Positions 884 to 18,675 of a stretch of 27,098 nt of DNA are shown one piece after another. Source of the DNA: a virus. The stretch is from IMG/VR virus record IMGVR_UViG_3300017753_000074, positions 1 to 27,098 of that record; one strand, given 5' to 3'. A model generated the notes under the pieces. It made no database searches and was not told the origin of the DNA. It saw nothing but the letters and a program-made list of their open reading frames with translations. Every line of letters begins with the position of its first letter. Positions within the stretch are counted from its first letter, which is position 1. The position numbers and the translations under genes are program-made.

Positions 884-1141
884 TTAAATATAATCCTTAC
901 TATTTCCTGTAAGATATAACTTAACCTTACCGGTAGTAAGGAGCTTATCCATTATCTCCCCAAAGGATTTATCTTCCTTATAACATAGCCTCTCTAAGTT
1001 ATCCCTTGCATCCTTCGTAAGGAGCAAACTTGTTTGCACTCTTCTATCCTCCTCCGGGATAGGTTTCCTACCCGCTCGTGATCGTTTACCTCCTCTAGCC
1101 ATATCACTAGAGGTGTACTCATTTGGTTCCATATTGTCCAT
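884..1141 (-). CDS. ribbon-helix-helix-like small DNA-binding protein (85 aa)
   Basis: The start is the ATG at 1141, preceded by AAAGGAA at good spacing; a TTG codon just upstream is a less likely start. After a disordered basic N-terminus (RGGKRSRAGRKPIP) comes RRVQTSLLLTKDARDNLERLC, a strand-helix-helix pattern typical of CopG/MetJ-like ribbon-helix-helix proteins in which the short strand binds DNA. It is the last gene of the minus-strand array and overlaps the upstream gene by about 20 bases. An early transcription regulator is a reasonable guess, but the target is unknown. Confidence 0.6.
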   Translation of the reverse strand: MDNMEPNEYTSSDMARGGKRSRAGRKPIPEEDRRVQTSLLLTKDARDNLERLCYKEDKSFGEIMDKLLTTGKVKLYLTGNSKDYI

Positions 1142-1334
1142 CAATTATTCCTTTCTCTTTTATGTGTGAAAATTCTAAGCCTACTACCTTCAATAGATTC
1201 CTTCCCTTTTTCTCAGCCTCCTCCGGGGAGTGGACCGAGAGGGTTGCAATAGATTCGGAGGTTCTAATTCCTTTCCTAGCATACAGGACAAAATCTTTTT
1301 TAGTTTTATGGGTCCTCCGTTGTCCTTTAGCCAC
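1119..1334 (-). CDS. hypothetical small basic protein (71 aa, GTG start)
   Basis: Starts at GTG, six bases after a strong TAAGGAGG ribosome binding site, which is better support than any internal ATG. The N-terminus is very basic (KGQRRTHKTKKD). It is followed by a compact alpha/beta-looking segment (VLYARKGIRTSESIATLSVHS, then EEAEKKGRNLL). I do not recognise the family. The 3' end overlaps the start of the ribbon-helix-helix-like gene, indicating translational coupling within the array. Confidence 0.6.
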   Translation of the reverse strand: MAKGQRRTHKTKKDFVLYARKGIRTSESIATLSVHSPEEAEKKGRNLLKVVGLEFSHIKEKGIIDGQYGTK

Positions 1335-1785
1335 GGCCTACCTCCTTATATTTATATTCGGTTGACCATTCATGGGTGTTATAACTCCACCGGAATTGAA
1401 AGTATCCAACGCCGTAAGTTATGTAGTGTGTCATAGCTTTCCTCATCTCATTCTTATCGTCCCGGGTCATCACTCTAAGCATTGGGTTCACAGTAAACAT
1501 ACCTCCAAGGTACCTATTTAGGTAGCCGGATCTCTTACCATAGAAAACAAACTCCTCCTTTGGTTCGTCCGGATCTCTCCAATCCATAGCAAAGATTCTC
1601 CCGCCATCACCAACCGGATCCACCACTAGCTCGAAGTCAGTATCTTCCACCGGCCACCCGGGTCTATGCCTAATCTTTTCAATATCTGATTTCTTAAATG
1701 ATATTGTGAGCTTAGTCTTGAGCTTTCGCTTTGGTTTATCCGGTACCGACATAGGTACATCTTTAATATTAAAGCTCTTCTTCAT
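1327..1785 (-). CDS. hypothetical protein (152 aa)
   Basis: I chose the ATG at 1785 because GGAGGAAGAC precedes it directly; the frame extends another 20 residues upstream but those would overlap the neighbouring gene further. The N-terminal third is lysine-rich (KPKRKLKTKLTISFKK). The rest is aromatic and charged, with FELVVDPVGDGGRIFAMDW and a C-terminus rich in Tyr/Trp (YGVGYFQFRWSYN). No signal peptide, membrane helix or known catalytic motif is visible, and I do not recognise the family. It overlaps both neighbours by 8-17 bases, as elsewhere in this array. Confidence 0.6.
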   Translation of the reverse strand: MKKSFNIKDVPMSVPDKPKRKLKTKLTISFKKSDIEKIRHRPGWPVEDTDFELVVDPVGDGGRIFAMDWRDPDEPKEEFVFYGKRSGYLNRYLGGMFTVNPMLRVMTRDDKNEMRKAMTHYITYGVGYFQFRWSYNTHEWSTEYKYKEVGRG

Positions 1786-2098
1786 GTCTTCCTCCAAATA
1801 AGGGCCCGCCATTCTCCTCGATAGCTTTCTTATACTCTCCCGCATTCTCCTGTGCGGAAGTAAGGGCCATGTTTATAATCTTCTCGGCCTCCTCCTTGTT
1901 CGGGGCACAGATGTACATGGTCTCAAAGAGTGTGGTTGCCATGCCATACAACAGGCTCGGCATACTTGGTAGTTTCATACCGGCATCGGTGTATGCTTTC
2001 TTTATTGTCGTGATAGATTCATGGACCGCGTCCATGCCTACCCTTATATAGTTTTCTGTGAGGTTGGTTGCTTCCTCATCGCTCATATCTTTATCCAT
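1769..2098 (-). CDS. hypothetical all-helical protein (109 aa)
   Basis: ATG start preceded by AAGGAG at about eight bases. The protein looks entirely helical: an acidic N-terminus (MDKDMSDEEATNLTENY), then amphipathic helices including LLYGMATTLFETMYICA, and a polar C-terminal tail ending GGRHEEEL. The Met/Leu/Phe-rich central helix is amphipathic rather than clearly transmembrane. The 3' end overlaps the next gene by 17 bases and the 5' end overlaps the gene upstream by 8. The family is not recognised. Confidence 0.6.
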   Translation of the reverse strand: MDKDMSDEEATNLTENYIRVGMDAVHESITTIKKAYTDAGMKLPSMPSLLYGMATTLFETMYICAPNKEEAEKIINMALTSAQENAGEYKKAIEENGGPLFGGRHEEEL

Positions 2099-2465
2099 TT
2101 TGTGATCTCCTTAGTGCGGTTATTATTATGTTAAAGTTTTCGGGGGTGAACTCACCCATCTCGCTTATGTCTATGTCATATGCATGAATTATCATGTTGT
2201 CATGGATGTCGGGCGTACCATCTGCATTCATTGGACCAATGGCTAACTTGTCCGGATAGAAAAAGACTCCGGCCTCCTCCATTGGGATCCGCTTGTCATC
2301 CCAAGTAACCCATGGCTTGGTGTGGTCCCTTTCCATTTGCTCCTTGGCTTTACGCAACCGCTCCTCTCTGTTCTCCTCCCGCATACAAAAGTCGGGGTGC
2401 TTTGGGTTGGACCAATTCCTTTGGGACTCTTTGGTCCTCTCCCATAATTCTTCTATTTGACTCAT
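2091..2465 (-). CDS. hypothetical protein (124 aa)
   Basis: The start is the ATG at 2465, which shares bases with the stop codon of the 26-residue peptide gene upstream (ATGA); a TTG five codons earlier is less likely. A G-rich stretch seven bases upstream may serve as ribosome binding site. The N-terminal half is highly charged and helical (REENREERLRKAKEQMERDH). The C-terminal half is more globular, with WDDKRIP, VFFYPDKLAIGPM and a DIDISEMGEF segment. I do not recognise the family, and no enzymatic motif stands out. Confidence 0.6.
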   Translation of the reverse strand: MSQIEELWERTKESQRNWSNPKHPDFCMREENREERLRKAKEQMERDHTKPWVTWDDKRIPMEEAGVFFYPDKLAIGPMNADGTPDIHDNMIIHAYDIDISEMGEFTPENFNIIITALRRSQNG

Positions 2466-2542
2466 AGCTTGGCCCCCCAATAGAAGAAGATTAATAATGA
2501 TATCACCGGACCGGTGAAGATTAGGTAATCGTATGGGTTCAT
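2462..2542 (-). CDS. 26-residue single-pass membrane peptide
   Basis: This very short gene fills an otherwise empty gap. Its ATG overlaps the stop of the upstream gene (TAATG), a GGAGG lies about ten bases before it, and its TGA overlaps the ATG of the downstream gene (ATGA). The product begins MNPYDYLIF and continues as one hydrophobic helix (VISLLIFFYWGA) ending in a single Lys, so it is probably membrane-inserted. Small early phage membrane peptides often interfere with host envelope or superinfection functions, but that is only an analogy. Both couplings and the SD make it unlikely to be chance. Confidence 0.6.
   Translation of the reverse strand: MNPYDYLIFTGPVISLLIFFYWGAKL
2503..2517. 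repeat. 15-base perfect inverted repeat
   Basis: TCACCGG-A-CCGGTGA forms two 7-bp perfect arms around one central base. It lies inside the 26-residue peptide gene, where it also encodes residues around FTGPV. Such a centred palindrome could be a protein-binding operator, or a chance product of the high CCGG frequency in this genome. Confidence 0.5.
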
Positions 2543-2895
2543 TATATTTTTTCCTCCACTATATAATTATAATCTTTGAGCTCGTTGGTTACCCACTCCA
2601 CTAGATCGGCGAGGGCCTCATCGTTCCGAGAGTTGGCTCGGATACTTGCATCCTTTAGGAACCGGTAATCTGAATGCCATGAGGAGTAAGGTCCGGGCAC
2701 CCGGATGATTGCTCCTCCTCCCTCTTTCTTTGGGGTAGTAGGTAGCTTGAAGATTTCCTTGTGCTCTAGTACCTCGTAAAGGAAGTCTAAGTCTCCTCCA
2801 ATACCTCCCTCCCTTTCTATAACTTTGGGCTCCTCCTCGGTCTCACCCTCGGATCTTTTGAAATCTTTAAGTGTCATGTCTTGGTCAATGCTCAT
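2542..2895 (-). CDS. hypothetical acidic protein (117 aa)
   Basis: I chose the ATG at 2895, which overlaps the TGA of the upstream gene (ATGA). The longer frame has a Cys/Arg-rich extension (MCRIRCPKYRKP) that is read from the neighbour's coding sequence and looks spurious. The protein has a charged N-terminus (KRSEGETEEEPKV), a glycine-rich linker (GGIGGDLDFLYEVLE), a 'KKEGGGAIIRVPGPYSSWHSDYRFL' type segment with possible loop character, and a helical C-terminus (NDEALADLVEWVTNEL). The family is not recognised. Its last codons supply the ribosome binding site for the 26-residue peptide. Confidence 0.6.
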   Translation of the reverse strand: MSIDQDMTLKDFKRSEGETEEEPKVIEREGGIGGDLDFLYEVLEHKEIFKLPTTPKKEGGGAIIRVPGPYSSWHSDYRFLKDASIRANSRNDEALADLVEWVTNELKDYNYIVEEKI

Positions 2896-3197
2896 GTTAA
2901 TTGGCTTTCTATATTTAGGGCATCGGATCCGGCACAATGCTCGGACGATTCAATTGTTATCCCGAGGGGCGTGTTCATCTGATTGATAAGTTGGTCTGCA
3001 TCTATGGCCTCATCTACTAGATGATCATGGGCCCATGTTTCCATCTCCTCCTCGAGCTCATCCTCCTCTTGAGAATACCCATCGGCATCCTGTTCGAGGG
3101 TATAATCTACCTTATACTTTACCTCATACATTTTAGCTACTGATACGAACATGGTCTTGACCATACCGGTACGATTTTCGATCTCCTCCTCAGTCAT
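2892..3197 (-). CDS. hypothetical acidic protein (101 aa)
   Basis: Start chosen at the ATG at 3197, two bases past the upstream stop, with GAGAGGGGG about nine bases before it. An in-frame ATG at 3206 is possible but sits directly against that SD. The product is strongly acidic (EQDADGYSQEEDELEEEME) and predicted helical, with no membrane segment. Strong acidity in an early phage protein could mean DNA mimicry or partner binding, but no family is recognised. It is coupled by ATGA to the next gene. Confidence 0.6.
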   Translation of the reverse strand: MTEEEIENRTGMVKTMFVSVAKMYEVKYKVDYTLEQDADGYSQEEDELEEEMETWAHDHLVDEAIDADQLINQMNTPLGITIESSEHCAGSDALNIESQLT

Positions 3198-3198
3198 A

Positions 3199-3711
3199 TT
3201 ATTCATCCCCCTCTCTGTGCGGTTGGTAGTTGGCAACCTGTTCATCGATTGAGGTATCTTGGCCCTCCTTATAGATCTCATTATGTTGGGCTCGCACAAG
3301 CAGATCAAGATTCTTCTCCTCAATGTTTTTCTCGAGCTCTTGGATATACTCAAGGTCCTTGTCCGCCTGTTTTTGGTAGTTGGCAAGGGCTAGGGCTTGC
3401 TTATTAAGTTGGCGTTCCATCTCGAGGGCCCTCTCGTTTTGATCGAGGATTGTTTTATTCTTATCGTCTACCGCATCTCGAAGAGCCTGTAATGGTATGA
3501 GGTTAAGGTCCTTTTTTTCCTCGAGGATCTCCTTGGCATCATCTAATTTGATACCCAAGTCTATGATCTCCTCCCGGGCTAATGCTTCCCCGGTGTTTGT
3601 CCCATTAAGTAGGGCCTCAATTGACATTCTAGCAACTGATTCCCATGTTGGCGTTATTGATACCCGGTAGGATTGGTCTCCTCCGGCGTTGGTTTGATCT
3701 CCTGTATTCAT
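3199..3711 (-). CDS. coiled-coil protein with TWESVARMSIEALLNG motif (170 aa)
   Basis: The N-terminus carries ITPTWESVARMSIEALLNGT followed by AREEIIDLGIKLDDA. This motif recurs in short phage and bacterial proteins of unknown function. From about residue 50 to 145 the sequence is a continuous heptad-like coiled coil rich in Lys, Glu and Gln, so it is probably oligomeric. The C-terminus ends in acidic REGDE. It is the first gene downstream of a promoter-like TTGACA element at 3733-3746, so it may head its own transcription unit. The SD is weak. The function is unknown. Confidence 0.65.
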   Translation of the reverse strand: MNTGDQTNAGGDQSYRVSITPTWESVARMSIEALLNGTNTGEALAREEIIDLGIKLDDAKEILEEKKDLNLIPLQALRDAVDDKNKTILDQNERALEMERQLNKQALALANYQKQADKDLEYIQELEKNIEEKNLDLLVRAQHNEIYKEGQDTSIDEQVANYQPHREGDE

Positions 3712-3719
3712 ATTCTTAT

Positions 3720-3746
3720 ATTTGATTATTCAATTTGATTTGTCAA
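3720..3746 (-). promoter_or_regulatory. candidate promoter (shared TTGACAAATCAAAT element)
   Basis: Reading the minus strand, TTGACA at 3746-3741 begins a 14-base element, TTGACAAATCAAAT, repeated exactly at 5838-5825 before the first gene of the array. An AT-rich run with TATAAG-like sequence follows before the ATG at 3711, though a canonical 17-base spacer would place the -10 at AAATAT. It lies in the largest gap of this part of the array. Confidence 0.45.
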
Positions 3747-3752
3747 CTATTA

Positions 3753-4145
3753 TTATTTTTTTGTTTTGGGGTCATAGATATTGGTAACCATATCCACCTT
3801 GAGCCCGAGCCTCCGGCCAATTTTGATGGCCCCCTCTAGGTCTACATTGGCCGAGTAAAACTCGAGTTGTCCTTGGTCTGTAATTGAAAAGCAATGTCTA
3901 TCCCTTACCGGAATGTTAGCGGTCGGCCCATATTCTCCTCCGGCGTTCACCTTAATTCCTCCACGCTCATTCAAGATATCCTCGGCTACATATAGAGGGC
4001 CGTCATCAGTCTCATCCGGATCTCTTCCGGAATCGTCATAGATGAATACCTTACCCTCTTTGAGGGCGATATGATTATGGTATTTTGAGCGGTGAAGTGG
4101 GATATAGCCGTTGGGTGTCCTTGTGTGATTTTGTGCGTCATTCAT
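3753..4145 (-). CDS. hypothetical protein (130 aa)
   Basis: I start it at the ATG at 4145, preceded by CAGGAGGAAATCAAA, an excellent SD; the frame continues 18 codons upstream but without such support. The protein opens with a polar stretch (NDAQNHTRTPNGYIPLHRS). It appears to be mainly beta with later helix: HIALKEGKVFIYDDSG, an acidic DPDETDDG, CFSITDQGQLEFYSA and a GAIKIGRRLGLKVD segment. No catalytic motif or membrane helix is evident and I do not recognise the family. It lies directly downstream of the ArdC-like gene with 23 bases between, and may be expressed with it. Confidence 0.6.
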   Translation of the reverse strand: MNDAQNHTRTPNGYIPLHRSKYHNHIALKEGKVFIYDDSGRDPDETDDGPLYVAEDILNERGGIKVNAGGEYGPTANIPVRDRHCFSITDQGQLEFYSANVDLEGAIKIGRRLGLKVDMVTNIYDPKTKK

Positions 4146-4168
4146 TTTGATTTCCTCCTGTATGTTAT

Positions 4169-5086
4169 TTATATGGTTTGATAGGATCCTGTGATCCATT
4201 GGTGAGCCTTACTCGCTTGAGCCGAGGCCGTAGCAAATAGTTTCTTGTCGGCTTTTAATTTCTTACTCCATGACTCAATATATGAGGCGGAATTATCGAA
4301 TGACTCTTTGCCCATTTTGCAATCGGACAAAAGGAAACAGGCCCCGAGCTCGGCAACCAACTCCTCCCGAGAATAATCGGCGGATCCGAAAGGTTTCGGG
4401 GCCGAGTCTAATTTTCGATCTAATCGGGTTGAATGGCCTGTGGCATGGACAAGCTCATGCATGGCCGTCTTATAATACCCTTCTCCTGTTTTGAATTGCT
4501 CCCGCTTGGGTAAATGTACGCTATCGGTAGAGGGGCGATAAAAGGCCCGATTCCCTCCATCATGGTTTATTTTTGGCACTAGCTTACCCGCTACCGCCTC
4601 CCTTATGAGATCCTCGGCCAATTTCTTAGGATTCCACTCGTTAAGATCCTCCGAGGTTTCCCCGAATGCATCTACAGGGAGCTTGTCGGGATCTATACCC
4701 TCGGTTTGCTCCAAGTTGAAGACCGCATCAGCTTTTAAGTATGGAATCAATTTCTGCTTGTCCTCGGGTACAGGATTGCCGTCCCGATCCTTATCCGCCT
4801 TGAACATTTTAAAGAAGGTAACGAAGGAAGACTTTTCCCCCTTCTTAATGGTTCCCCCAAGCTCCTTGGCCTTCCTGTAAGTCAACCAATACGGCGAGGT
4901 CTTCCCCTCCATCATTAGAAGCATGAAATTAAGGCCCCTATAAGCCTTTTTTGAGGCCAAGCTAGTAGGTACCCCTCCCGAGGTATCCCAAGGCCGTTCC
5001 CATGGTACTACGCCCGCTTCGAGGGCCTTTAAAATTTTATCTGTTACCCTTTGGTATGGGCATTGTGCTTTATATTTCTTGGTCAT
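4169..5086 (-). CDS. ArdC-like antirestriction protein with zincin metallopeptidase domain
   Basis: ATG start after CAGGAG at eight bases. The first ~125 residues match the ArdC N-terminal single-strand DNA-binding domain: ILKALEAGVVPWERPW (19-34), a Y-x-GLN motif (49-53), YWLTYRKAKELGG (66-78) and KGEKS. The second half is a zincin-like peptidase: HELVH at 210-214 is the HExxH zinc site and EELVAELGA at 241-249 supplies the downstream glutamate, as in the MPTase-type domain fused to many ArdC proteins. ArdC from plasmids protects incoming DNA from type I restriction and binds single-stranded DNA; the peptidase's substrate is not settled. Length (305 aa) is normal for the family. Its early-region position fits a role in surviving host defence. 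Confidence 0.85.
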   Translation of the reverse strand: MTKKYKAQCPYQRVTDKILKALEAGVVPWERPWDTSGGVPTSLASKKAYRGLNFMLLMMEGKTSPYWLTYRKAKELGGTIKKGEKSSFVTFFKMFKADKDRDGNPVPEDKQKLIPYLKADAVFNLEQTEGIDPDKLPVDAFGETSEDLNEWNPKKLAEDLIREAVAGKLVPKINHDGGNRAFYRPSTDSVHLPKREQFKTGEGYYKTAMHELVHATGHSTRLDRKLDSAPKPFGSADYSREELVAELGACFLLSDCKMGKESFDNSASYIESWSKKLKADKKLFATASAQASKAHQWITGSYQTI

Positions 5087-5102
5087 AATTTTAATCTCCT
5101 GT
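5084..5102 (-). promoter_or_regulatory. recurrent SD leader, copy 1 (before ArdC-like gene)
   Basis: Minus strand: ACAGGAGATTAAAATTATG, identical in 18 of 19 positions to the leader before the next gene upstream (5350-5332). A third, looser copy (ACAGGAGGAAATCAAAATG) precedes the 130-aa gene at 4145. The SD core is AGGAG, spaced about eight bases from ATG. Confidence 0.6.
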
Positions 5103-5121
5103 TTTTAGTTTATTTCTCTGA

Positions 5122-5334
5122 TCATTGGTTTGATTCCTTTTCTTTAGTTATTTTCCAAAATTCCCCTCCTAATAATTTTTTAATATCTTCAATGATCATG
5201 CTTTGATCTTTTTCGTACTCATCTATAATGAGCTCTAGGCCGTAAATAAGGGCCTCTCGAGAGGGTGTTTTGCTAAGAATGCGAAAGTCGGAATTAATGG
5301 ATTTGGTCGAATCGGTCGTATTGTCTTGTGGCAT
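5122..5334 (-). CDS. hypothetical small protein (70 aa)
   Basis: ATG start behind ACAGGAGATCAAAATT, a strong SD. The product has a polar Ser/Thr/Asn-rich N-terminus, then RILSKTPSREALIYGLELIIDEYEKD and IEDIKKLLGGEFWKI, which read as two amphipathic helices. It ends in a charged tail. No family is recognised. It lies 35 bases upstream of the ArdC-like gene with a near-identical leader, so the two are probably translated at similar levels from one transcript. Confidence 0.6.
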   Translation of the reverse strand: MPQDNTTDSTKSINSDFRILSKTPSREALIYGLELIIDEYEKDQSMIIEDIKKLLGGEFWKITKEKESNQ

Positions 5335-5350
5335 AATTTTGATCTCCTGT
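5332..5350 (-). promoter_or_regulatory. recurrent SD leader, copy 2
   Basis: Minus strand: ACAGGAGATCAAAATTATG before the 70-aa gene, differing by one base from the copy before the ArdC-like gene. This is the best defined ribosome binding site of the array. Confidence 0.6.
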
Positions 5351-5353
5351 ATT

Positions 5354-5539
5354 TTATTGGTCTTGGGTTATTCCTGTAGCGGGAGCCTCGGTCTCGAGAC
5401 TATACCCGCAAAAAGTCATTATTTTTTTCATCTGTGCTACCATTGGCTCGGGTACAATTACCGAGTGGTATTGAAGGCCAAAATTGGTACGGCCTAGTTT
5501 CTCGTTTGAAAAGTTAAGTGCTATTAGATTGTGTTCCAT
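5354..5539 (-). CDS. hypothetical small protein (61 aa)
   Basis: The gene fits exactly between its neighbours (8 and 19 base gaps) but has no clear SD before its ATG. The product contains NFGLQYHSVIVPEPMVAQMKKIM followed by FCGYSLETEAP. The central part reads as a beta strand then a helix. I do not recognise it. Position and tight packing in the array are the main reasons to accept it. Confidence 0.5.
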   Translation of the reverse strand: MEHNLIALNFSNEKLGRTNFGLQYHSVIVPEPMVAQMKKIMTFCGYSLETEAPATGITQDQ

Positions 5540-5547
5540 ATTATTTA

Positions 5548-5802
5548 CTATTTGAGGGTGTTAACATATTGAAGAAAATCGCCTAAACATTCGTAAGATT
5601 TCTTTTTTTGTTTCCTAAGCTCTTTAGTGCTTTCGATCTTCTCATTTGTTGAGCGGGTTGAATTTATTATCTTATAAAGGCCCTTAGAATATTCTTGGGC
5701 TCTCATTAATTGGTTGTGTGCATTTATGATGTCATCATTTGCGTTTTTGCATTGCATTTGAAGATTCTCAATCGGCGTTAAACTAAGTGTAATATTGTTC
5801 AT
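5548..5802 (-). CDS. hypothetical helical protein (84 aa), first gene of the minus-strand array
   Basis: The first ATG of the array after the 246-base non-coding region; no SD is visible, but a TATAAT and a TTGACA lie just upstream, so it may be read from a short leader. The product looks like a helical hairpin: IENLQMQCKNANDDIINAHNQL, AQEYSKGLYKIIN, then a Lys/Glu-rich helix (NEKIESTKELRKQKKKSY) and a C-terminal FLQYVNTLK. It is unlike known families I can recall. Confidence 0.55.
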   Translation of the reverse strand: MNNITLSLTPIENLQMQCKNANDDIINAHNQLMRAQEYSKGLYKIINSTRSTNEKIESTKELRKQKKKSYECLGDFLQYVNTLK

Positions 5803-5804
5803 GG

Positions 5805-5838
5805 TTATAGTTATGAATTATTATATTTGATTTGTCAA
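5805..5838 (-). promoter_or_regulatory. candidate promoter of the minus-strand array
   Basis: On the minus strand TTGACAAATCAAAT (5838-5825) runs into TATAAT (5826-5821), ending about 18 bases before the first ATG at 5802. The 14-base element is shared with the promoter-like site at 3733-3746. TTGACA and TATAAT are too close (7 bases) to be a sigma-70 pair, so either a weaker hexamer (TTTATC, 17 bases upstream of TATAAT) is the -35 or the element is a factor-binding site. Confidence 0.5.
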
Positions 5839-5874
5839 ACATGATAAACAAACAGGTAAATAGATTTACGCCCC

Positions 5875-5890
5875 GAGCCCTGTATTCATG
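5875..5890 (+). repeat. 16-bp direct repeat, copy 1
   Basis: GAGCCCTGTATTCATG, repeated exactly at 6038-6053. The following bases are also similar (AGGGGTTCCG here, CGGATTCCGG there). A degenerate inverted copy (CCTGTATTTAAG on the minus strand) lies between them near 5981-5992. Confidence 0.75.
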
Positions 5891-5902
5891 AGGGGTTCCG
5901 CC

Positions 5903-5937
5903 GATTCAATAAACAGTAAAAAAAACTTTTTTGAATC
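5903..5937. repeat. inverted repeat with A/T-rich loop
   Basis: GATTCAA (5903-5909) pairs with TTGAATC (5931-5937). The intervening A8-C-T6 run can extend the pairing internally. It could act as a terminator-like hairpin for the minus-strand candidate terS transcript or as an easily melted site. Confidence 0.45.
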
Positions 5938-5973
5938 CTGTTAAAAAACAATTAAAGCGAAGGCGAAGCTCTG

Positions 5974-5988
5974 AGACCCGCTTAAATA
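5974..5988 (+). repeat. 15-bp direct repeat, copy 1
   Basis: AGACCCGCTTAAATA, repeated exactly at 6706-6720 on the other side of the minus-strand candidate terS gene. Here ACAGGCC follows the repeat; at the second copy ACAGGCC precedes it. Confidence 0.7.
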
Positions 5989-6037
5989 CAGGCCGTCAGC
6001 CGTTTTTGAACTTTTCAGTTTTTACCCGAAAAGCCTA

Positions 6038-6053
6038 GAGCCCTGTATTCATG
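6038..6053 (+). repeat. 16-bp direct repeat, copy 2
   Basis: Second exact copy of GAGCCCTGTATTCATG. It overlaps the stop codon of the candidate small terminase gene, which ends at 6049. Confidence 0.75.
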
Positions 6054-6564
6054 CGGATTCCGGCACTTCTATGATGTCCCGATCTCGTTCTTTTCGTAGG
6101 GCCTCGAGGTGTCCTTTTACATCTTCAAGGGAAGCGGTTTTTTTGATCTCTACTACCTGTGATGCTTGGCCAAGATCCGCTTTTTCCTTATCTCTTAGAA
6201 CCCCGAAAGTAATACCTAGAGCCCCCGCAGGAATCTTGCCCGCTTCAGCCTGTTCGATGATCTTCAACAATATAGTTTGACTAGCAATTGTATTAAGGCC
6301 CTGTGTGAGCTTTTGGGCCCCTTCAATAGATTCTTTTTCCCGCTTCAAGATTATTGCTACCGATTCAGTTGCTACCTTTTCCGCTTTAGAGATCGATAGT
6401 GCAGATTTACCCTGTGCAAGAGCTTGGGCTATCCTAGCATATTTGTCGGGCTCCTTCTCGAAGATCTGATCAGCGGTATAAGTAGAAGGGCAGATCTCCC
6501 CCGCTTCTAGATTAGCGGGTAAATTATCGGGTAGGTTTTTCACTCTTTTTTTATCTGTTGGCAT
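6049..6564 (-). CDS. HTH-containing protein, candidate small terminase subunit (TerS)
   Basis: 171 residues, ATG start. After a polar N-terminus, residues 42-75 form a helix-turn-helix-like segment (YARIAQALAQGKSALSISKA, then a second helix). This is followed by a long helix (residues 77-105), then IPAGALGITFGVLRDKEKAD (111-130), and a charged C-terminal helix with IIEVPESA. N-terminal DNA-binding HTH, helical oligomerisation region and a 'gil-DK' segment are the usual layout of phage TerS-like proteins. It lies beside the large subunit gene, but on the opposite strand and diverging from it, which is unusual. An alternative is a transcription regulator of the divergent promoters. The repeats on both sides are candidate binding sites. 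Confidence 0.5.
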   Translation of the reverse strand: MPTDKKRVKNLPDNLPANLEAGEICPSTYTADQIFEKEPDKYARIAQALAQGKSALSISKAEKVATESVAIILKREKESIEGAQKLTQGLNTIASQTILLKIIEQAEAGKIPAGALGITFGVLRDKEKADLGQASQVVEIKKTASLEDVKGHLEALRKERDRDIIEVPESA

Positions 6565-6705: not shown

Positions 6706-6720
6706 AGACCCGCTTAAATA
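6706..6720 (+). repeat. 15-bp direct repeat, copy 2
   Basis: Exact second copy of AGACCCGCTTAAATA, preceded by ACAGGCCA, 732 bases from the first copy. Confidence 0.7.
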
Positions 6721-6927: not shown

Positions 6928-8547
6928 ATGTTGTCTTGGACTAACCACCCCTTGTTACCGGTACCTTCTAAGGAAGAGATGCTAACCATGGGTGAAGATA
7001 AGTTACTCGAGTTTCATAGAACTAGAGAAGATGCCATCTTACGAGAAAAGGATGACCCTTATAGACACGGTTACGAGCCTCCTAATTGGTCTATGGTAGA
7101 CGATGAGATCCGAACGCATAACGAAGTTCTACTTATGGGCGGAAATCGTGCGGGGAAAACAGAGCTATTTTCTAAGCGAGTCGTAGAGTGCGTATGTAAG
7201 AACCCTAACACTATTATATGGTGCCTTACGGAAAATATGCAGAACTCTATACAAGTACAACAGAAAGCTATCTTTAAGTACCTACCTAAAGAGTACAAGA
7301 ACCTTGGTAGATCTAAGACCGGATATATCGTGTTCTCAATTCGTAACGGATTTACCGCCGGGAAGTTCTCATTGCCTAACGGAAGTCAAGTAATTTTCAG
7401 GAATTGGTCCCAAGATTTGAGTACGGTAGAGGGTGGAGAGATCGGAGTGCCCACATGGGAGAACGGTTTAGCCGAAGGTACACATAATATAGGATTTTGG
7501 GCAGATGAACTTATACCTCTTTCATGGCTCGAGACATTACGCTTTCGTACCATAACTCGAGGTGCTACCGGTCTCGTGAGCTTTACTGCCGTGACAGGGT
7601 GGAGCCCAACGGTTAAGAGTTTACTAGCCGGAGCAAGCACAACCAAGTGGGGGAAAGCGGAACTTCTCGATAACGAGAAAGTCCCACTAATTCAGCAACC
7701 AACTCGGTCCGCCTCTAGCGTTGTGTACTTCCATACTAAGGACAATCCCTATGGAGGGTGGGCCCACATGAAGAAGCAACTATCCGGTGAGAACCGTGAC
7801 ACTATTTTATGTAGGGCTTATGGTGTACCAACGAAGAGTGCCCAAACGGTTTTTGCAAAATTTGGGGAGAACAACATAAAGGACCCTAAATCTATACCAA
7901 TTCTTGAGGACCCGGTAAACAATCCGGCTATATGGTTAACGGTAGTGGATCCGGCGGGAGCAAAGCCATGGTTCATACTGCACATGGGGATAGATGCTCA
8001 TGGTACATATTGGGTTGTCGATGAGTTTCCTTGTTTCGAGGAGGAAGGTCTTTGGTACGATCCGGCTAGAGGTGACCGGGGTAAACCGGGAGACGGTGCA
8101 AGAGCAAATGGATTTGGGATCTCTGATTATGTGGAAGTAATTAATCGTATGGAGAAGGGCCGTGATTGCATGAGGTATGTGGATCCTCGTTTAGGGAATG
8201 CAACTTATCAGAAGGCCGAAGGTACATCTAATATCATAGATGATCTTAATGAAGCGGGTATAGTTTGTTATCCGGCAGAGGGTTTGGATATAGAGACCGG
8301 GGTACAATCTATACAATCTTTATTAGCGTGGGACCAAAGTAAGCCGATGGATCTGACTAACCGGCCCCGCTTAATGGTCTCCACCCGGTGTAGGAATCTG
8401 ATTATCTGCATGGAGAATTGGCCTAGTGATGGGAATTTAAAGCATGGGGCAAAGGATCCCATCGATTGTTTACGCTACGGAGCGATTATGAATCACGAGT
8501 ATTATGCTAAGGAGGACATGATACAAACAGGAACAGGGGGATACTAG
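6928..8547 (+). CDS. terL: terminase large subunit (packaging ATPase/nuclease)
   Basis: Motor that cuts concatemeric DNA and pumps it through the portal. From the chosen ATG the protein has 539 residues. Walker A is GGNRAGKT (71-78) and Walker B with catalytic Glu is GFWADE (189-194). A coupling motif FTAVTGW follows near 219-225. The C-terminal RNase H-like nuclease has acidic residues in VVDPAG (D341), RYVDP (D419) and KDPIDCLRYG (D511/D514). The frame is open upstream from 6883 (TTG), but those residues would be read from a palindrome. ATGs at 6979 and 6988, after AAGGAAGAG, are alternative starts. The preceding text (HPLLPVPSKEEM) resembles a normal TerL N-terminus, so I keep 6928. Confidence 0.92.
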   Translation: MLSWTNHPLLPVPSKEEMLTMGEDKLLEFHRTREDAILREKDDPYRHGYEPPNWSMVDDEIRTHNEVLLMGGNRAGKTELFSKRVVECVCKNPNTIIWCLTENMQNSIQVQQKAIFKYLPKEYKNLGRSKTGYIVFSIRNGFTAGKFSLPNGSQVIFRNWSQDLSTVEGGEIGVPTWENGLAEGTHNIGFWADELIPLSWLETLRFRTITRGATGLVSFTAVTGWSPTVKSLLAGASTTKWGKAELLDNEKVPLIQQPTRSASSVVYFHTKDNPYGGWAHMKKQLSGENRDTILCRAYGVPTKSAQTVFAKFGENNIKDPKSIPILEDPVNNPAIWLTVVDPAGAKPWFILHMGIDAHGTYWVVDEFPCFEEEGLWYDPARGDRGKPGDGARANGFGISDYVEVINRMEKGRDCMRYVDPRLGNATYQKAEGTSNIIDDLNEAGIVCYPAEGLDIETGVQSIQSLLAWDQSKPMDLTNRPRLMVSTRCRNLIICMENWPSDGNLKHGAKDPIDCLRYGAIMNHEYYAKEDMIQTGTGGY

Positions 8548-8548
8548 A

Positions 8549-8887
8549 ATGGTGGATAATGAAAAGCGGGTAAAGATTGTTGAGATGTTGGAATCGGGGG
8601 AGAGTCCTACGAAGATAGCTCGGGAACTGAAGACAAGTAGGAACACGGTATACCGTGTAAAGAAGGAGGCTAAAGACGGACACATCAAAGATCTTAAAAA
8701 GAACGAGCCTAAGACGGTTGGCATAGAGGAGGCCGAAGTAATTAAGTTGGTTCCTAATGAAAGATTAGTGTTAGCGAGGATAGGGGAACGCTTCGTTCGT
8801 GTGGTAAAACAACCTAAAGTAAGACCAAGGATTAGGTCTAAGATTAGGGTAATGGAAATTACAGATGACTTATACAGATTGGTATGA
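8549..8887 (+). CDS. small HTH protein (112 aa)
   Basis: The ATG lies one base after the terminase stop, with GGGGG about eight bases before. Residues 8-40 (KIVEMLESGESPTKIARELK, then TSRNTVYRVKKEA) are a resolvase/Hin-type helix-turn-helix. The second half is very basic and strand-rich (LVLARIGERFVRVVKQPKVR). No recombinase catalytic domain is present, so it is a stand-alone DNA-binding protein. Sitting between terminase and portal, it could be a late regulator or a packaging accessory. Confidence 0.7.
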   Translation: MVDNEKRVKIVEMLESGESPTKIARELKTSRNTVYRVKKEAKDGHIKDLKKNEPKTVGIEEAEVIKLVPNERLVLARIGERFVRVVKQPKVRPRIRSKIRVMEITDDLYRLV

Positions 8888-9110
8888 AAAAATCGAAGCG
8901 AGATCTAACCGAATCGATACTCTATTGGATTTTATGGTGTGTCGGGCGGGGATACAGACTTTGGAAACGGGTGCTACCCCAAGTTATACGCTTGAAGAGA
9001 TTGCTGATTTCGTGGGGTGCGACATTATGGTCATTAAGAAAGCGGAAGCCTCGGCCATGAAGAAGGTTAGGTCTAATAATCCGGAATTAAAGCTATATTT
9101 ACCGGAATGA
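8865..9110 (+). CDS. sigma-70 region 4-like HTH protein (81 aa)
   Basis: Overlaps the previous gene by 23 bases; GGAAATTACAG precedes the ATG. Residues 42-69 (YTLEEIADFVGCDIMVIKKA, then EASAMKKVR) match the region 4 helix-turn-helix of sigma-70-type factors, where the second helix reads the -35 element. Regions 2 and 3 are absent. Similar short proteins occur in the morphogenesis modules of podophages. The family assignment rests on the HTH pattern only; a role in late transcription is inferred. Confidence 0.65.
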   Translation: MTYTDWYEKIEARSNRIDTLLDFMVCRAGIQTLETGATPSYTLEEIADFVGCDIMVIKKAEASAMKKVRSNNPELKLYLPE

Positions 9111-9235
9111 AAAAAAGGGGACTATACGCCAATATCAATGCGAGGAAGAAAAAAGGGATTAGTAGACCCAAGTCTAAGTCCACTATTTCTAAAAAAGCCT
9201 ACGCAAATATGAAACGAGGTTTTAAAAAGAAGTAA
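9107..9235 (+). CDS. tiny lysine/arginine-rich protein (42 aa)
   Basis: Short gene with ATGA overlap at its start (9107-9110) and a TAATG overlap at its end (9233-9237), preceded by CCGGA. The sequence begins MKKRGLYANINARKKKGISR and ends KRGFKKK; about 40 percent is Lys or Arg. A very similar opening (KKGLYANI-A-R/K) is found in tiny conserved podophage proteins located between terminase and portal genes. It could bind nucleic acid or neutralise packaged DNA; the function is not known. Confidence 0.75.
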   Translation: MKKRGLYANINARKKKGISRPKSKSTISKKAYANMKRGFKKK

Positions 9236-9483
9236 TGCCTGTAAAAAAGAAAAATGTTTCTTTACGCATGGGCGTTCACAAATCTCGTAAAGGTGGCTTA
9301 ACGGCCAAGGGCCGTGCTAAGTATAATAAGGCTACCGGCTCTAAGTTAAAGGCCCCGCAACCGGGAGGGGGCTCAAGGAAGAAATCTTTTTGTGCTCGTA
9401 TGGGTGGAGTCAAAGGACCCATGAAAAAACCTAACGGTAAACCTACTAGGAAAGCGTTAGCTTTAAAACGATGGAAATGTTAG
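9235..9483 (+). CDS. conserved small basic phage protein (82 aa, DUF6321-like)
   Basis: ATG overlaps the stop of the 42-aa gene (TAATG). The protein is strongly basic and contains KGGLTAKGRAKYNKATGSKLK and SFCARMGGVKGPMKK, with a C-terminal LKRWKC. The pattern 'GGL-A-GRAKYN-ATG-LK ... SFCARM ... RWKC' is characteristic of a conserved phage family of unknown function that I recall as DUF6321. It is usually found near the portal gene, as here. Basic composition suggests DNA contact during packaging, but that is inference. Confidence 0.75.
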   Translation: MPVKKKNVSLRMGVHKSRKGGLTAKGRAKYNKATGSKLKAPQPGGGSRKKSFCARMGGVKGPMKKPNGKPTRKALALKRWKC

Positions 9484-9484
9484 T

Positions 9485-11569
9485 ATGAACGAATATGATA
9501 ACAAAGCCCGGGTCTTTTCAGACAAACCGGATGTAGATGAATTACGGCACGATTACAATCGTGTCAGAAATGAGCTAGGTTGGTGGTTAACTCGTTCGGA
9601 AGAAAACCGGGATGTACGCTACAATCTTTGGCCGAACAAATCTGACGATGGCAGAAAGCATGGACCCGAAGCATGGCCATGGGATAATGCAAGTGACCTT
9701 GAAGTTTTCCACACCGATAATTTAATTACTTCCTCGGTGGCAATGTTAAAGTCCGCCTTAAAAAAAGCCAACTTGATAGCCTCGCCGGTAGAAGCTAGTG
9801 ATACTGCAAATGCTTCGTTAGTAACTCAATTTTTGAGGTGGTTAGTGTTCAGTCAGATGGATGAGCTAAACCGTGAATCAGAAGTCTTAGCTAACCATAT
9901 TTTAGAAAAAGGTTTAGGGATACTTGGTGTATATTGGAAACGAGAGATTCAAAAAAATTACAAGACCCTAACAATGGTAACGCTAATGCGGGATCCGGAC
10001 CTAGCAACGGCTTTGCAGGAAGCGGATGTCGCAGTAATAGCAGAGATAATGCGTGGTAAAGATCCGAGCATTGTGGACGAAGACCTTGAGGAAAAGATCA
10101 TGGAAGTCTTAGACGGTAAGGCTAATGTAAAGTATACCGTTAATGTTATAACTTGTAACCGACCTTACCTTAAAACTTATGAGTTAGGTAAAGATATACT
10201 GATTGATTCTAATGTGATGGATCTTCAATCCGCTAGAAGTATTTATTGTTTACATTGGTTCACACCGGAAGAGTTAAAGGGCAAGGTCCACTCAGATGGT
10301 TGGGACCAAAAATTTGTGGACGATGCTATAGAGAACTATACCGGCGATACGCCAACAGTTCAGCAAGCCAACTCGAATCTATTCCCTAGCCGGGACAATA
10401 ACCTTAAACAGAACTATGAGGGATTAGTTCAAGTAGTTTGTTGTTACCGGAGGGAAGTGGACGAGAATGGTGTACCAATTATGTCGATGACCGTGTTTAC
10501 GGAGCGAGGAGAAGAGGAACTATACGCCATACATGAAACGATCCAAACCGTCCCGGCTCAGTTTCCGTTCATCGCATTTCCTAGGGAAAGCATAAGCCAA
10601 CGCTTATTTGATTCTCGGGGTTGGCCTGAATTACTTCGGGGTAATGAGTATGGAATTAAGACCGAGCGTGATGCCCGAAGGGATCAAGCAAGTCTTAGTA
10701 CGGTGCCACCTTTAGAATATATGGTTGGCCGGGCCCCCGCCTCGATAGGTCCCGGGGCAAAGATTCCTGTGCGTAGGCGTGGAGAAATTGGTTACATGGA
10801 AATTCCTAGGTATAGCCCGGCCTCTACGGAAGTAGAGCAAAGTTTAATACTTCAATCTTATAAGATGACGGGTAGGCCAACCGATGAAGCGGATGCGGTT
10901 TTTGCAAATGTTCAAACTCAAGCTATGGTTGACAATTGGTTAACAGGGTGGAAACAAGTACTTAACCAAATTTGGACTCTCCAAAAAAGTTACGGTGACG
11001 ACAAGGTTTGGTTCCGTGTCACTAATAACGAAAAAGGGGTAGAGCTTTTAATGGATGATACCGGTAACAAGTATGACATTGATTTGAGTTGGAACACTTT
11101 AAATGCGGACGAAGAAAAGCAACTACAGAAACTTGAAAAAGTTGGCACAATCATGTCGCAGTTCGATAGATCCGGGCAAGTTGACTTTGGTGAGTTCACA
11201 AGAGTATTCGTTGAAAGCATTGACCCGAACCTTGCTACTCAGCTTATCACTCCGAAGGAGACCGCCACGCAGAGAGAAGAAGAAGAGACTTCCGCAGACA
11301 TTGCTAAGATCGTGTCGGGGCAAGTTGTAAACGCACCGCCGAACGCTAATGCAGAACTAAGGCTACAAGTTATAGAGAATTGGTTGAAGGGAACGGAAGA
11401 GATCCCCGGAAACGACAATCAAGAAAAGCTCGAGAAAAATGAAGGTTTACAACAGAGACTTCAATTATATGCCGGGCAACTTCAACATTCTATTCAACAA
11501 CAAAAAAATGCTATGACCGGAAAACTAGGTACACCCCCCGGTAATGTGCAAGCAACTTCATTAAGATGA
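9485..11569 (+). CDS. portal protein
   Basis: 694 residues, ATG one base after the upstream stop. The N-terminal third contains GPEAWPWDNASDLEVFHTDN and a long helical region, with MRGKDPSIVDEDLEE later: the 'PWPNASD(I/L)' block is typical of portal proteins of podoviruses that lack recognisable similarity to HK97 or T4 portals. Then come beta-rich wing/stem segments (WPELLRGNEYGIKTERDARR, a conserved stem-like stretch) and a Gln-rich helical C-terminus (QRLQLYAGQLQHSIQQQ) like the portal barrel. It forms the 12-subunit DNA channel at one capsid vertex. Location after terminase and before scaffold and capsid supports this. Confidence 0.88.
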   Translation: MNEYDNKARVFSDKPDVDELRHDYNRVRNELGWWLTRSEENRDVRYNLWPNKSDDGRKHGPEAWPWDNASDLEVFHTDNLITSSVAMLKSALKKANLIASPVEASDTANASLVTQFLRWLVFSQMDELNRESEVLANHILEKGLGILGVYWKREIQKNYKTLTMVTLMRDPDLATALQEADVAVIAEIMRGKDPSIVDEDLEEKIMEVLDGKANVKYTVNVITCNRPYLKTYELGKDILIDSNVMDLQSARSIYCLHWFTPEELKGKVHSDGWDQKFVDDAIENYTGDTPTVQQANSNLFPSRDNNLKQNYEGLVQVVCCYRREVDENGVPIMSMTVFTERGEEELYAIHETIQTVPAQFPFIAFPRESISQRLFDSRGWPELLRGNEYGIKTERDARRDQASLSTVPPLEYMVGRAPASIGPGAKIPVRRRGEIGYMEIPRYSPASTEVEQSLILQSYKMTGRPTDEADAVFANVQTQAMVDNWLTGWKQVLNQIWTLQKSYGDDKVWFRVTNNEKGVELLMDDTGNKYDIDLSWNTLNADEEKQLQKLEKVGTIMSQFDRSGQVDFGEFTRVFVESIDPNLATQLITPKETATQREEEETSADIAKIVSGQVVNAPPNANAELRLQVIENWLKGTEEIPGNDNQEKLEKNEGLQQRLQLYAGQLQHSIQQQKNAMTGKLGTPPGNVQATSLR

Positions 11570-11793
11570 ATTTAAACGATGCCGTTAAAAGACTAAAAAC
11601 ATCCGAAGAATATCGGATAATACTCGAGCACCTTACAATAGTCCGAGAGAATTTAATTGTAGAGTTTAAAGATCCGCAAGCTATGGAAAACCCCCAAAGC
11701 CTAGCTAACATTGCCGGCAAGATAGATCAAACAGATACTATCTTATTGGAGATGGGGGGACCGGTATACCCCAAGGATGTCAAATCAGAATAA
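11566..11793 (+). CDS. small conserved head-module protein (75 aa)
   Basis: ATGA overlap with the portal stop. The helical product has EEYRIILEHLTIVRENLIVEFKDPQ and SLANIAGKIDQTDTILLEMG. Small helical proteins with an 'E-R-ILEHL---RE-L' start are common directly after podophage portal genes. It may be a minor head or assembly factor. No motif defines its function. Confidence 0.6.
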   Translation: MNLNDAVKRLKTSEEYRIILEHLTIVRENLIVEFKDPQAMENPQSLANIAGKIDQTDTILLEMGGPVYPKDVKSE

Positions 11794-12211
11794 AAAAAAT
11801 GGTATCTACTATGAACAACTTTTCATAGCCGAAGCGTTAAAGCGTGGGTTAGATGTTTGCTTTACGGTGGGGGATAACCTTCCCTACGATGTAATAATAA
11901 TGAATGGAGCCAAATCAACTCGTGTTCAAATAAAAGGAACGGCGGGTTGCGGAACCGAAGATAGTGGTAAACCTCGATATCAATACACCATGGCAAGGGG
12001 TAGACATCCGTGTAAGCATATAAATATTGAGTACGATATCTTTGCGGGATTCGCTCGCCATAACAATGGTGAGTCTTGGTACATAATCCCTAAAAGATTT
12101 TTGAAGTATAAAACTATAAAAGTGTATCCGGACAATTTAAATAGCACCGGTAAGTACGAAAAGTTTAAGGGAGATTGGTCTCAGTTTAAAAAGTTCGGTC
12201 TAAAAAAATAG
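11777..12211 (+). CDS. PD-(D/E)XK superfamily endonuclease-like protein
   Basis: 144 residues, starting 17 bases inside the previous gene after AAGG. The fold signature is complete: an N-terminal helix with Glu13 (YYEQLFIAEALKRG), YDVII with Asp38, and RVQIKG with Gln51/Lys53, the D-(Q/E)xK core of PD-(D/E)XK nucleases. The arrangement is closest to the small 'intron-endonuclease/Holliday-type' group with a GE--- first helix, (Y)D(L/V)I and VQ(V/I)K. The later KGDWSQF is outside the core. It could be a homing-type insertion or a packaging/resolution nuclease. It sits between the head protein and scaffold, which is not a usual place. Confidence 0.75.
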   Translation: MSNQNKKNGIYYEQLFIAEALKRGLDVCFTVGDNLPYDVIIMNGAKSTRVQIKGTAGCGTEDSGKPRYQYTMARGRHPCKHINIEYDIFAGFARHNNGESWYIIPKRFLKYKTIKVYPDNLNSTGKYEKFKGDWSQFKKFGLKK

Positions 12212-16693: not shown

Positions 16694-17617
16694 ATGAGTA
16701 CGATTACACCAACCACATCTTCAACTAGACCAACTGCACAGGCAGGTAGAATTGCATTTGAAACAAACACTAAAAACATCATAGTCAACGATGGAACCAA
16801 TTGGTATGCCTATAACTACGATGACACAACTGCTTTTAGTAATAACCTGTCGCTTAGTTTTGATGGAGCGGATGATTTACAGACTACTTATAATGCTGCA
16901 ACTAGCACATTCAGTATGAGTGTTTGGATTAAGGCATCATCAGGTACAAGTATGTCATTTGGTGCTACTAGTGGTAATAATTCAGTAGGTAGTAAAGGTG
17001 TAAACATACTTACTTCCACCACGGCAGGGAATGGTTTTCTTATAGCATGGAAAGGTTATAATACAGGACACGCACCAGCAGGACTAGGTGGAGCAAATGC
17101 CGCTTTAGATATATTGGACGGTGAATGGCATCACTTAGCTTATACGATAAACGGAACATCCATTAAACTTTACAAAGATGGAGGAGATGCCGCTATTAAT
17201 TCAAGCAACCCATCGAATACACAGGGTTCTCCATTTGGGACTTTTACTGCGGGTACCGCTTTAAGTGCCGGTGGGTTTGATTCACTTCATCCTTACACAA
17301 TAGGGAGTTTAGTAAATGGATACTTTTTTACAGGTAAAATGGATGAATTAGCTTTTTTTGAGAGTGAACTTTCAGGGTCAGATGTTTCAGCAATTTATAA
17401 TTCGGGAGTACCTACCGATGTTGGATCACAAGGATTAAACCTTTCACCTAGTGCTTACTTTAGAATGGGTGATGGATCGAGCGATACAAATAGTTCAGGT
17501 GCTACACCTAGTAATCTTGACTCAGTAGGTACACTTACTTCATTGGTTGGGGGTTACACCGCCACTCAAAGCACTCCCTCTCGAAAACCAACCTATTCAA
17601 ACGATACCCCAAGCTAA
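16694..17617 (+). CDS. receptor-fibre protein with LamG (concanavalin-like) domain, copy 1
   Basis: 307 residues. The N-terminal module (residues 1-44: SSTRPTAQAGRIAFETNTKN, IIVNDGTNWYAYNYDD) matches those in the neighbouring fibres. Residues 50-240 are a LamG/concanavalin A-like jelly roll: LSLSFDGADD, MSVWIKAS, DGEWHHLAYTINGTSIKLY and GKMDELAFFESELSG. The W-HH-A and D-(L)-FFE elements are the family hallmarks. Such domains bind glycans, so this is a likely host-surface adhesin. There is no SD; the start follows TAATAC. It pairs with the LamG gene at 17887. Confidence 0.75.
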   Translation: MSTITPTTSSTRPTAQAGRIAFETNTKNIIVNDGTNWYAYNYDDTTAFSNNLSLSFDGADDLQTTYNAATSTFSMSVWIKASSGTSMSFGATSGNNSVGSKGVNILTSTTAGNGFLIAWKGYNTGHAPAGLGGANAALDILDGEWHHLAYTINGTSIKLYKDGGDAAINSSNPSNTQGSPFGTFTAGTALSAGGFDSLHPYTIGSLVNGYFFTGKMDELAFFESELSGSDVSAIYNSGVPTDVGSQGLNLSPSAYFRMGDGSSDTNSSGATPSNLDSVGTLTSLVGGYTATQSTPSRKPTYSNDTPS

Positions 17618-17886: not shown

Positions 17887-18675
17887 ATGCCAACTACAAT
17901 TCCATCCATAACTTCATCGAATCGTCCGGGTAGCCCCTCGGCAGGAGATGCTTATTTTGAAACAGATACTAATAACTACATTATTTACGATGGGTCAAAT
18001 TGGCGAGGGTATATTAGTGACGGAGAAACTTTAGGAGCAAATGGTTACTCGCTAGATTTAGACGGAACAGATGACAGAGTTGAATTAGGAAACATTTCAA
18101 CTCTAAATAATGCTACTGCTTTTTCAATTACATTTTGGGTTAAACTTTCCTCATCAGCACCTCTACCTTCGTATTTTTATCAGTCGGGTAGTGATACATT
18201 TTATAATACCATAGGTTTTTGGCAAAGTAGTAATTTAGACTTTATGGTGGGAACAGGTTCAAATTATGCACTCACTCGATATAATGGTAATATAAGAGAT
18301 GACCAATGGCATCACTTGGCCGGTGTATATAACGGATCGACTTTGGTTACTTATATTGACGGAGTTGCCCCAACCCAAACTAATGAAGGGGTAACAATAC
18401 CTTCATCAACTTTATCTACGGCAGGAAATAACCCACACATTGGAAGTAAGACTGACGATTCAGCATCGCTTCCGGGGAAAATGGATGACTTTTCTATTTT
18501 TAATGCCGCACTAACCGCAGACGAAGTTTTAAATATTCGCAATAGTAGACTATACCCCCAATCAAAACTAATTCATCAGTATCAATTTGAAAATAACTAC
18601 AACGACTCAAAAGGTAGTTTAAATGGTACTGCACAGGGCAATCCTACTTTTGATTCCTCCGATAAACCTTACTAA
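17887..18675 (+). CDS. receptor-fibre protein with LamG domain, copy 2
   Basis: 262 residues with the same architecture as the gene at 16694: an N-terminal module (TSSNRPGSPSAGDAYFETDT, IIYDGSNWRGYISDG) and then a LamG domain (about residues 55-225) with YSLDLDGTDD, FSITFWVKLS, RDDQWHHLAGVYNGSTLVTY and GKMDDFSIFNAALT. The C-terminal FENNYNDSKGSLNG is a common end of such fibres. The two LamG genes share short identical DNA runs (for example TGGCATCACTT at the WHHL site) but diverge elsewhere, indicating old duplication or independent recruitment. Likely a glycan-binding receptor protein. Confidence 0.75.
   Translation: MPTTIPSITSSNRPGSPSAGDAYFETDTNNYIIYDGSNWRGYISDGETLGANGYSLDLDGTDDRVELGNISTLNNATAFSITFWVKLSSSAPLPSYFYQSGSDTFYNTIGFWQSSNLDFMVGTGSNYALTRYNGNIRDDQWHHLAGVYNGSTLVTYIDGVAPTQTNEGVTIPSSTLSTAGNNPHIGSKTDDSASLPGKMDDFSIFNAALTADEVLNIRNSRLYPQSKLIHQYQFENNYNDSKGSLNGTAQGNPTFDSSDKPY

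Follow-up and report, generated by a model that had tools for sequence, protein, structure and literature searches.

An ArdC-encoding gene array in a variable slot of uncultivated tailed phages: a probable anti-restriction and accessory cargo operon

Islands of anti-defence or early accessory genes, such as early regions with ocr or Mom-type genes, are a general kind of phage locus. ArdC of plasmid R388 binds single-stranded DNA (ssDNA) and lets the plasmid overcome HsdRMS in the recipient, and its protease activity is dispensable for this effect (PMC7213743). ArdC-N is a domain characteristic of conjugative elements; for phage-type polyvalent proteins it has been described as rare (PMC5512222). 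The locus described here is an array of genes around an ArdC homologue in the virus record IMGVR_UViG_3300017753_000074, the whole of which (27,098 bases) is referred to as the window. Like the known islands, it consists of a run of small genes on one strand with host-type candidate promoters, known anti-restriction genes and variable cargo. It differs in that its slot is fixed between g15 and the terminase large subunit (TerL) on one side and a RepA-like gene on the other, with a ribbon-helix-helix (RHH)-like gene retained. It also differs in a putative leaderless-type promoter element and in new families confined to its clade in the collections searched. The type of locus, phage anti-restriction and accessory cargo, is already known, and several of its protein families are new. 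The preferred reading, with a probability of roughly 0.6, is that the array is a lineage-specific, early-type anti-restriction and accessory cargo operon of a tailed phage, with the roles for promoters, ArdC, neighbouring genes and g1 that are set out below.

The array and its ArdC homologue

The array occupies the minus strand from position 5802 (g14) down to 884 (g1). The original prediction had counted 13 genes of 26–305 aa; the minus-strand array stands, but it holds 14 genes, namely 13 open reading frames (ORFs) of 61–305 aa and one of 26 aa. Between 884 and 5802, 96.7% of this strand falls within ORFs of at least 60 aa. In 300 dinucleotide shuffles the average is 13% and the highest value 31%, and coverage so far above the shuffles indicates that the array is real. 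Overlaps had been claimed, and are found from g9 to g1 (1–23 nt of overlap, or 1 nt apart) but not from g14 to g9, where gaps of 8–41 nt separate the genes. A good Shine-Dalgarno (SD) sequence, likewise claimed for the array, is present at eight starts (g12, ArdC, g10, g8, g6, g4, g3 and g2) but is absent or weak at g14, g13, g9, g7 and g1.

The array converges with a plus-strand replication module. This module comes into view in a near-identical contig of 17.3 kb, which matches the window at 99.8% across 14.2 kb and extends it leftward. The module reads as a PolA-like C-terminal part, a primase-like protein and a RepA-like ATPase, names read from the sequences rather than taken from library matches. 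Upstream of the array lies g15 (6049–6564, minus strand), which encodes a conserved helix-turn-helix (HTH)-like protein and forms the upstream boundary of the slot, outside the array count. It is divergent from TerL (6991–8547, plus strand), which has a PHROG terminase match of 1.7e-8.

The ArdC homologue is g11 (4169–5086, 305 aa). The proposed ArdC-like assignment is confirmed by two Pfam matches, one of 111.3 bits to ArdcN (cut-off 22.6) and one of 126 bits between the C-terminal zincin-like domain and MPTase-PolyVal. The protein also matches PHROG 7245 'anti-restriction' at 8.6e-77 and the solved R388 ArdC at 5.5e-49, where HELVH (HExxH) and EELVAE (the glutamate-helix motif) align. It therefore shares both domains, both motifs and a similar length with ArdC of plasmids R388/pSa and with PHROG 7245, but its phage belongs to a lineage that has been poorly sampled; it was matched in 57 phage records, with an identity to these phage ArdCs of ~40% or less. 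Its presumed function in this phage is assigned by homology.

TerL matches one annotated phage, C75C1 (OQ984151), at 30%, so that sampling of the whole lineage is poor. The portal and capsid of C75C1 are 32% and 29% identical to those of the window, but no array homologue was found in this phage, and replication and other genes adjoin its terminase. Two members of the wider g15/TerL group, L094 and L095, occur in bacterial assemblies, one labelled Opitutaceae (NZNM01000165.1) and one labelled Verrucomicrobia isolate AH-558-J18 (JAOLZO010000020.1); their TerL and portal are 50–56% and 43–49% identical to those of the window. A Verrucomicrobiota host of the phage group is thus plausible, a weak assignment because binning can misplace phage contigs. 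If it is true, the locus offers a view on restriction conflicts in Verrucomicrobiota, where few phages are known.

Apart from ArdC, no array gene gave a convincing match in Pfam, PHROGs, NCBIfam or PADLOC, not every gene having been run against every library. NCBIfam gave nothing usable for the array proteins, and weak PADLOC matches to HamA (14.5 bits) and PDC-S50 (14 bits) were taken as chance. A tblastn search of 50,697 phage records with g3, g4, g5, g7, g8, g9 and g10 found no match, and profile searches of solved structures with g10, g7, g5 and g8 found nothing credible. An ankyrin match of g10 (0.0066) was set aside, since no stretch passes alone. The last array gene, g1 (884–1141, 85 aa), had been described as RHH-like: it matches Pfam RHH_7 (CopG-type; E 0.0011), but at 19.7 bits it falls below the cut-off of 27, and its homologues gave no Pfam match.

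Conservation in relatives and the variable slot

Relatives were found with a g15 profile (62 viral loci) and with RepA scans (close clade). The array is nearly complete in L086, a 41.7-kb contig, and in L084, and partial in L080, L081 and L005. With tblastn, homologues of g1 and g3–g11 were identified in uncultivated phages at 26–80% identity, and those of ArdC are 75, 55 and 80% identical. Gene g10 (3753–4145, 130 aa), which adjoins ArdC, is 60% identical in L086 and 50% in L084. Its neighbour g9 (3199–3711, 170 aa) has a conserved N-terminus and a C-terminal half that is predicted to be coiled-coil-like, and is ~50% identical in both contigs. The acidic g8 (2892–3197, 101 aa) has a single homologue (48%, in L086), while the acidic g7 (2542–2895, 117 aa) is found at 33–36% in L080, L084 and L086. 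The hydrophobic 26-aa peptide g6 (2462–2542) is 64% identical in L084, where it holds the same position, and g5 (2091–2465, 124 aa, no family match) is 56% identical in L084 and 50% in L086. The acidic and helical-looking g4 (1769–2098, 109 aa) is 29–36% identical in L080 and L084, and g1 is 38–55% identical in L080, L081, L084 and L086.

The basic g3 (1327–1785, 152 aa, no family match) is 26% identical in L084 (E 2.9e-9); the L084 and L086 versions match each other at 1e-11. A viral scan with g3 alone matched only the near-identical contig, and a 131-aa cargo protein of L084 that was compared with g3 proved unrelated. The first array gene, the basic g14 (5548–5802, 84 aa), has a stretch of 59 aa that is 47% identical in L005. 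For g2 (1119–1334, basic, 71 aa, GTG start), g12 (5122–5334, acidic, 70 aa) and g13 (5354–5539, 61 aa) the tblastn searches of the relatives found no homologue. Synteny is broadly retained, with a rearrangement that places g8 after g5 in L086 and with differing insertions. Because of these homologues, most of the unnamed array genes represent conserved families rather than spurious ORFs. The original description of the genes as unrecognised holds for curated libraries but not for uncultivated phages. In L084, five or six extra small cargo genes, including one for a zinc-ribbon-like protein, lie upstream of ArdC (8091–9652) and have no counterpart in the window.

The space between g15 and RepA varies widely in length and content. 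Its length is 5.5 kb in the window, 4.6 kb in L086 and ~0.5–2.8 kb (measured between the matches) in the 22 contigs outside the close clade in which a convergent RepA homologue lies no more than 3 kb from g15. The slot of L080 contains a Mom-like gene (Pfam Mom, 9.6e-26; PHROG 1384, 2.8e-35), as does that of L046 (PHROG 1384, 8.8e-18). Mom DNA-modification proteins (Pfam PF25680, PHROG 1384) thus share this slot in L080 and L046 but are absent from the array of the window, where the Mom profile found no match. Across 42 related records ArdC-N occurs in three and a Mom-like gene in two, every one inside the slot; L080 lacks the ArdC N-terminus because its contig ends inside the gene. The g1 profile matched in 15 of the 42, and in the slots that were laid out the RHH-like gene is last or nearly last before RepA.

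These features characterize a variable cargo site whose theme is anti-restriction, a defined slot in uncultivated phages where known anti-restriction genes stand among small conserved families. Since ArdC and Mom-like genes are known anti-restriction genes, their neighbours in the slot are good counter-defence candidates; g3, g4, g5, g7, g8, g9 and g10 form a list for counter-defence screens, and g15 and RepA provide two anchor genes for locating further cargo. The Mom-like genes of relatives, together with the variable content and length of the slot, lend support to the earlier proposal of an accessory anti-defence block beside ArdC. For the other genes such a function is putative, and no result of the analysis points to an effect on CBASS, Gabija or similar systems.

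Promoter-like elements and competing explanations

Two promoter-like elements had been claimed, and both are present as exact copies of TTGACAAATCAAAT on the minus strand, at 5838–5825 upstream of g14 and at 3746–3733 directly upstream of g9. In the window these copies lie 35–36 nt before the ATG of the two genes, neither of which has an SD. The element is conserved with 0–3 mismatches upstream of g9 in L080, L084 and L086 and, in L084 and L086, also upstream of the gene that opens the array, and at seven of eight sites an ATG follows 35–37 nt downstream of its first base. The exception is a copy 64 nt before the ArdC gene of L084, which has an SD. A sigma-70 start with a 17-nt spacer would land at or next to these ATGs, and the missing SD at g14 and g9 together with this spacing suggests leaderless messages made by the host polymerase. 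TTTGACAAATCAAA is in addition a dyad, TTTGA-N4-TCAAA, and is hypothesized to be the site of an RHH repressor, for which g1 is the candidate.

Under the preferred reading, the array would fill a variable cargo slot that has the packaging module (g15/TerL) on one side and the replication module (the RepA-like ATPase) on the other. The host sigma-70 RNA polymerase would probably read it from two near-identical promoters, with leaderless messages at g14 and g9, and transcription would end at a bidirectional terminator; expression would be early in infection, a timing on which only the type and position of the promoters bear. ArdC would bind DNA and thereby shield the phage DNA from type I restriction as it enters the cell. 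Of the small proteins transcribed with it, several would most likely counter host defences or adjust the host early in infection, and the RHH-like g1 would probably regulate the operon, perhaps through the TTTGACAAATCAAA dyad. Several observations weigh against this picture. The -10 hexamers of the TTGACAAATCAAAT elements are weak, the element was not seen in distant slots with an RHH-like gene, and most array genes carry no functional clue. In addition, ArdC is limited to the close clade and Mom-like genes to two of the 42 records, so that the anti-restriction theme rests on few cases. A more ambitious form of the proposal is tentative, with the odds against it: that g3, g4, g5, g7, g8, g9 and g10 include several new anti-defence or host-takeover families. 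These would be expressed together with ArdC from host-type promoters that give leaderless messages, g1 would act as the switch by way of the TTTGACAAATCAAA dyad, and the phage group would belong to a bacterial phylum for which few phages have been studied.

RHH proteins often serve as antitoxins, g1 overlaps g2, and g6 is a short hydrophobic peptide. These points would fit a toxin-antitoxin pair of g1 and g2, perhaps involving g6, with g1 as the RHH antitoxin. Such a pair is very improbable, as the neighbour of the RHH-like gene is not conserved and no toxin family was matched in the library scans. In the window this neighbour is g2, whereas L080 has a lipoprotein-like gene there, L046 a Mom-like one and other slots different small genes. 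A broader alternative makes the array an operon for general accessory functions or replication support, in which ArdC serves mainly as an ssDNA-binding protein for phage replication and the Mom-like genes are coincidental cargo. The array does adjoin the replication module, the R388 protein does bind ssDNA (PMC7213743), and most array proteins have no defence-related match. However, the replication genes lie on the other strand, the array has its own predicted promoters, most relatives with the same type of replication module have no ArdC, and two independent Mom-like genes occur in the same slot. On balance this alternative is unlikely, if less so than the toxin-antitoxin pair.

The acidic protein g8 had been singled out as a possible DNA mimic. 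Its acidity is confirmed (26 aspartate or glutamate and 5 lysine or arginine residues in 101 aa, a net charge of about -21) and is largely retained in the L086 homologue, with 24 and 7 in 98 aa. Together with the proximity of ArdC, this charge would suit an inhibitor of restriction enzymes like Ocr or ArdA. However, small acidic proteins are frequent in this phage, and the compact core conserved between g8 and its homologue, the best-conserved part, includes an uncharged ISSEHC motif. An AlphaFold2 model from a two-sequence alignment predicts a beta-beta-alpha-beta fold (pLDDT 73, pTM 0.56). A structural match to SPFH with Z 7.0 is in a range that the tool calls common, and no sequence match was found among solved structures, Pfam or PHROGs. 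A DNA-mimic function of g8 is thus improbable. The model of g10 is beta-rich (pLDDT 78, pTM 0.72), and a fold match, FACT/PH-like at Z 4.5, is again in the common range and not credible. Neither model had a Foldseek match at E<=0.001.

The two-hairpin element and other features of the window

A two-hairpin element common to six loci is found where the array and the replication operon converge, at 737–885 in the window (L080, 11126–11268; L081, 3725–3875; L084, 3210–3348; L085, 5287–5425; L086, 4320–4455). It consists of a nested 9+9-bp hairpin followed by a bidirectional terminator-like hairpin (834–857 in the window), conserved with covariation and lengthened by conserved flanks. Changes on both sides are seen in 14 of 39 pairs, 96.5% of cells pair compared with 42–49% when partners are slid by 1–3 columns, and the covariation score was reached by none of 500 shuffles; the six sequences tested also supplied the structure, which makes these controls somewhat favourable to it. 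The element matches no Rfam family at gathering thresholds, and a covariance model found it only in this clade among the records searched. On its minus strand in the window is a 12/12 promoter sequence (TTGACA-16-TATAAT, 803–776), which was rejected as a promoter of the array because of its downstream position and its orientation away from the array. A hammerhead ribozyme was considered for the hairpin at 744–800, given CTGATGA...CGAAA in some relatives, and rejected, as these bases pair with covariation and no Rfam family matched at gathering thresholds. The element may be a 3' untranslated region element, an antisense promoter with an operator, or an origin.

In about 60 contigs the g15 gene neighbours the terminase and is oriented divergently from it, and TerL is present in nearly all of the 62 loci with a g15 homologue where the contig extends that far. 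The protein has no Pfam match and is a candidate small terminase subunit or switch regulator. Its flanks (5870–6059 and 6706–6720) contain two 24-nt near-copies of a CCGCATGAATACAGGGCTC-type sequence at a distance of 163 nt, and GACCCGCTTAAATA, in two exact copies 732 nt apart, also flanks the gene. As a motif upstream of g15, GACCCGCTTAAATA was not above chance at 3 mismatches, despite its two exact copies. Motifs similar to these repeats are found upstream of the array in L084, and the repeats are possibly packaging, origin or operator sites.

No tRNA genes were found in the window. In the head-gene block, a 144-aa protein (11777–12211) matches PHROG 5018, a family of unknown function, at 6.9e-11, and from its sequence looks like a PD-(D/E)XK nuclease. 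Two neighbouring, paralogue-like proteins of the tail region (16694–17617 and 17887–18675) appear to contain LamG/concanavalin-type domains.

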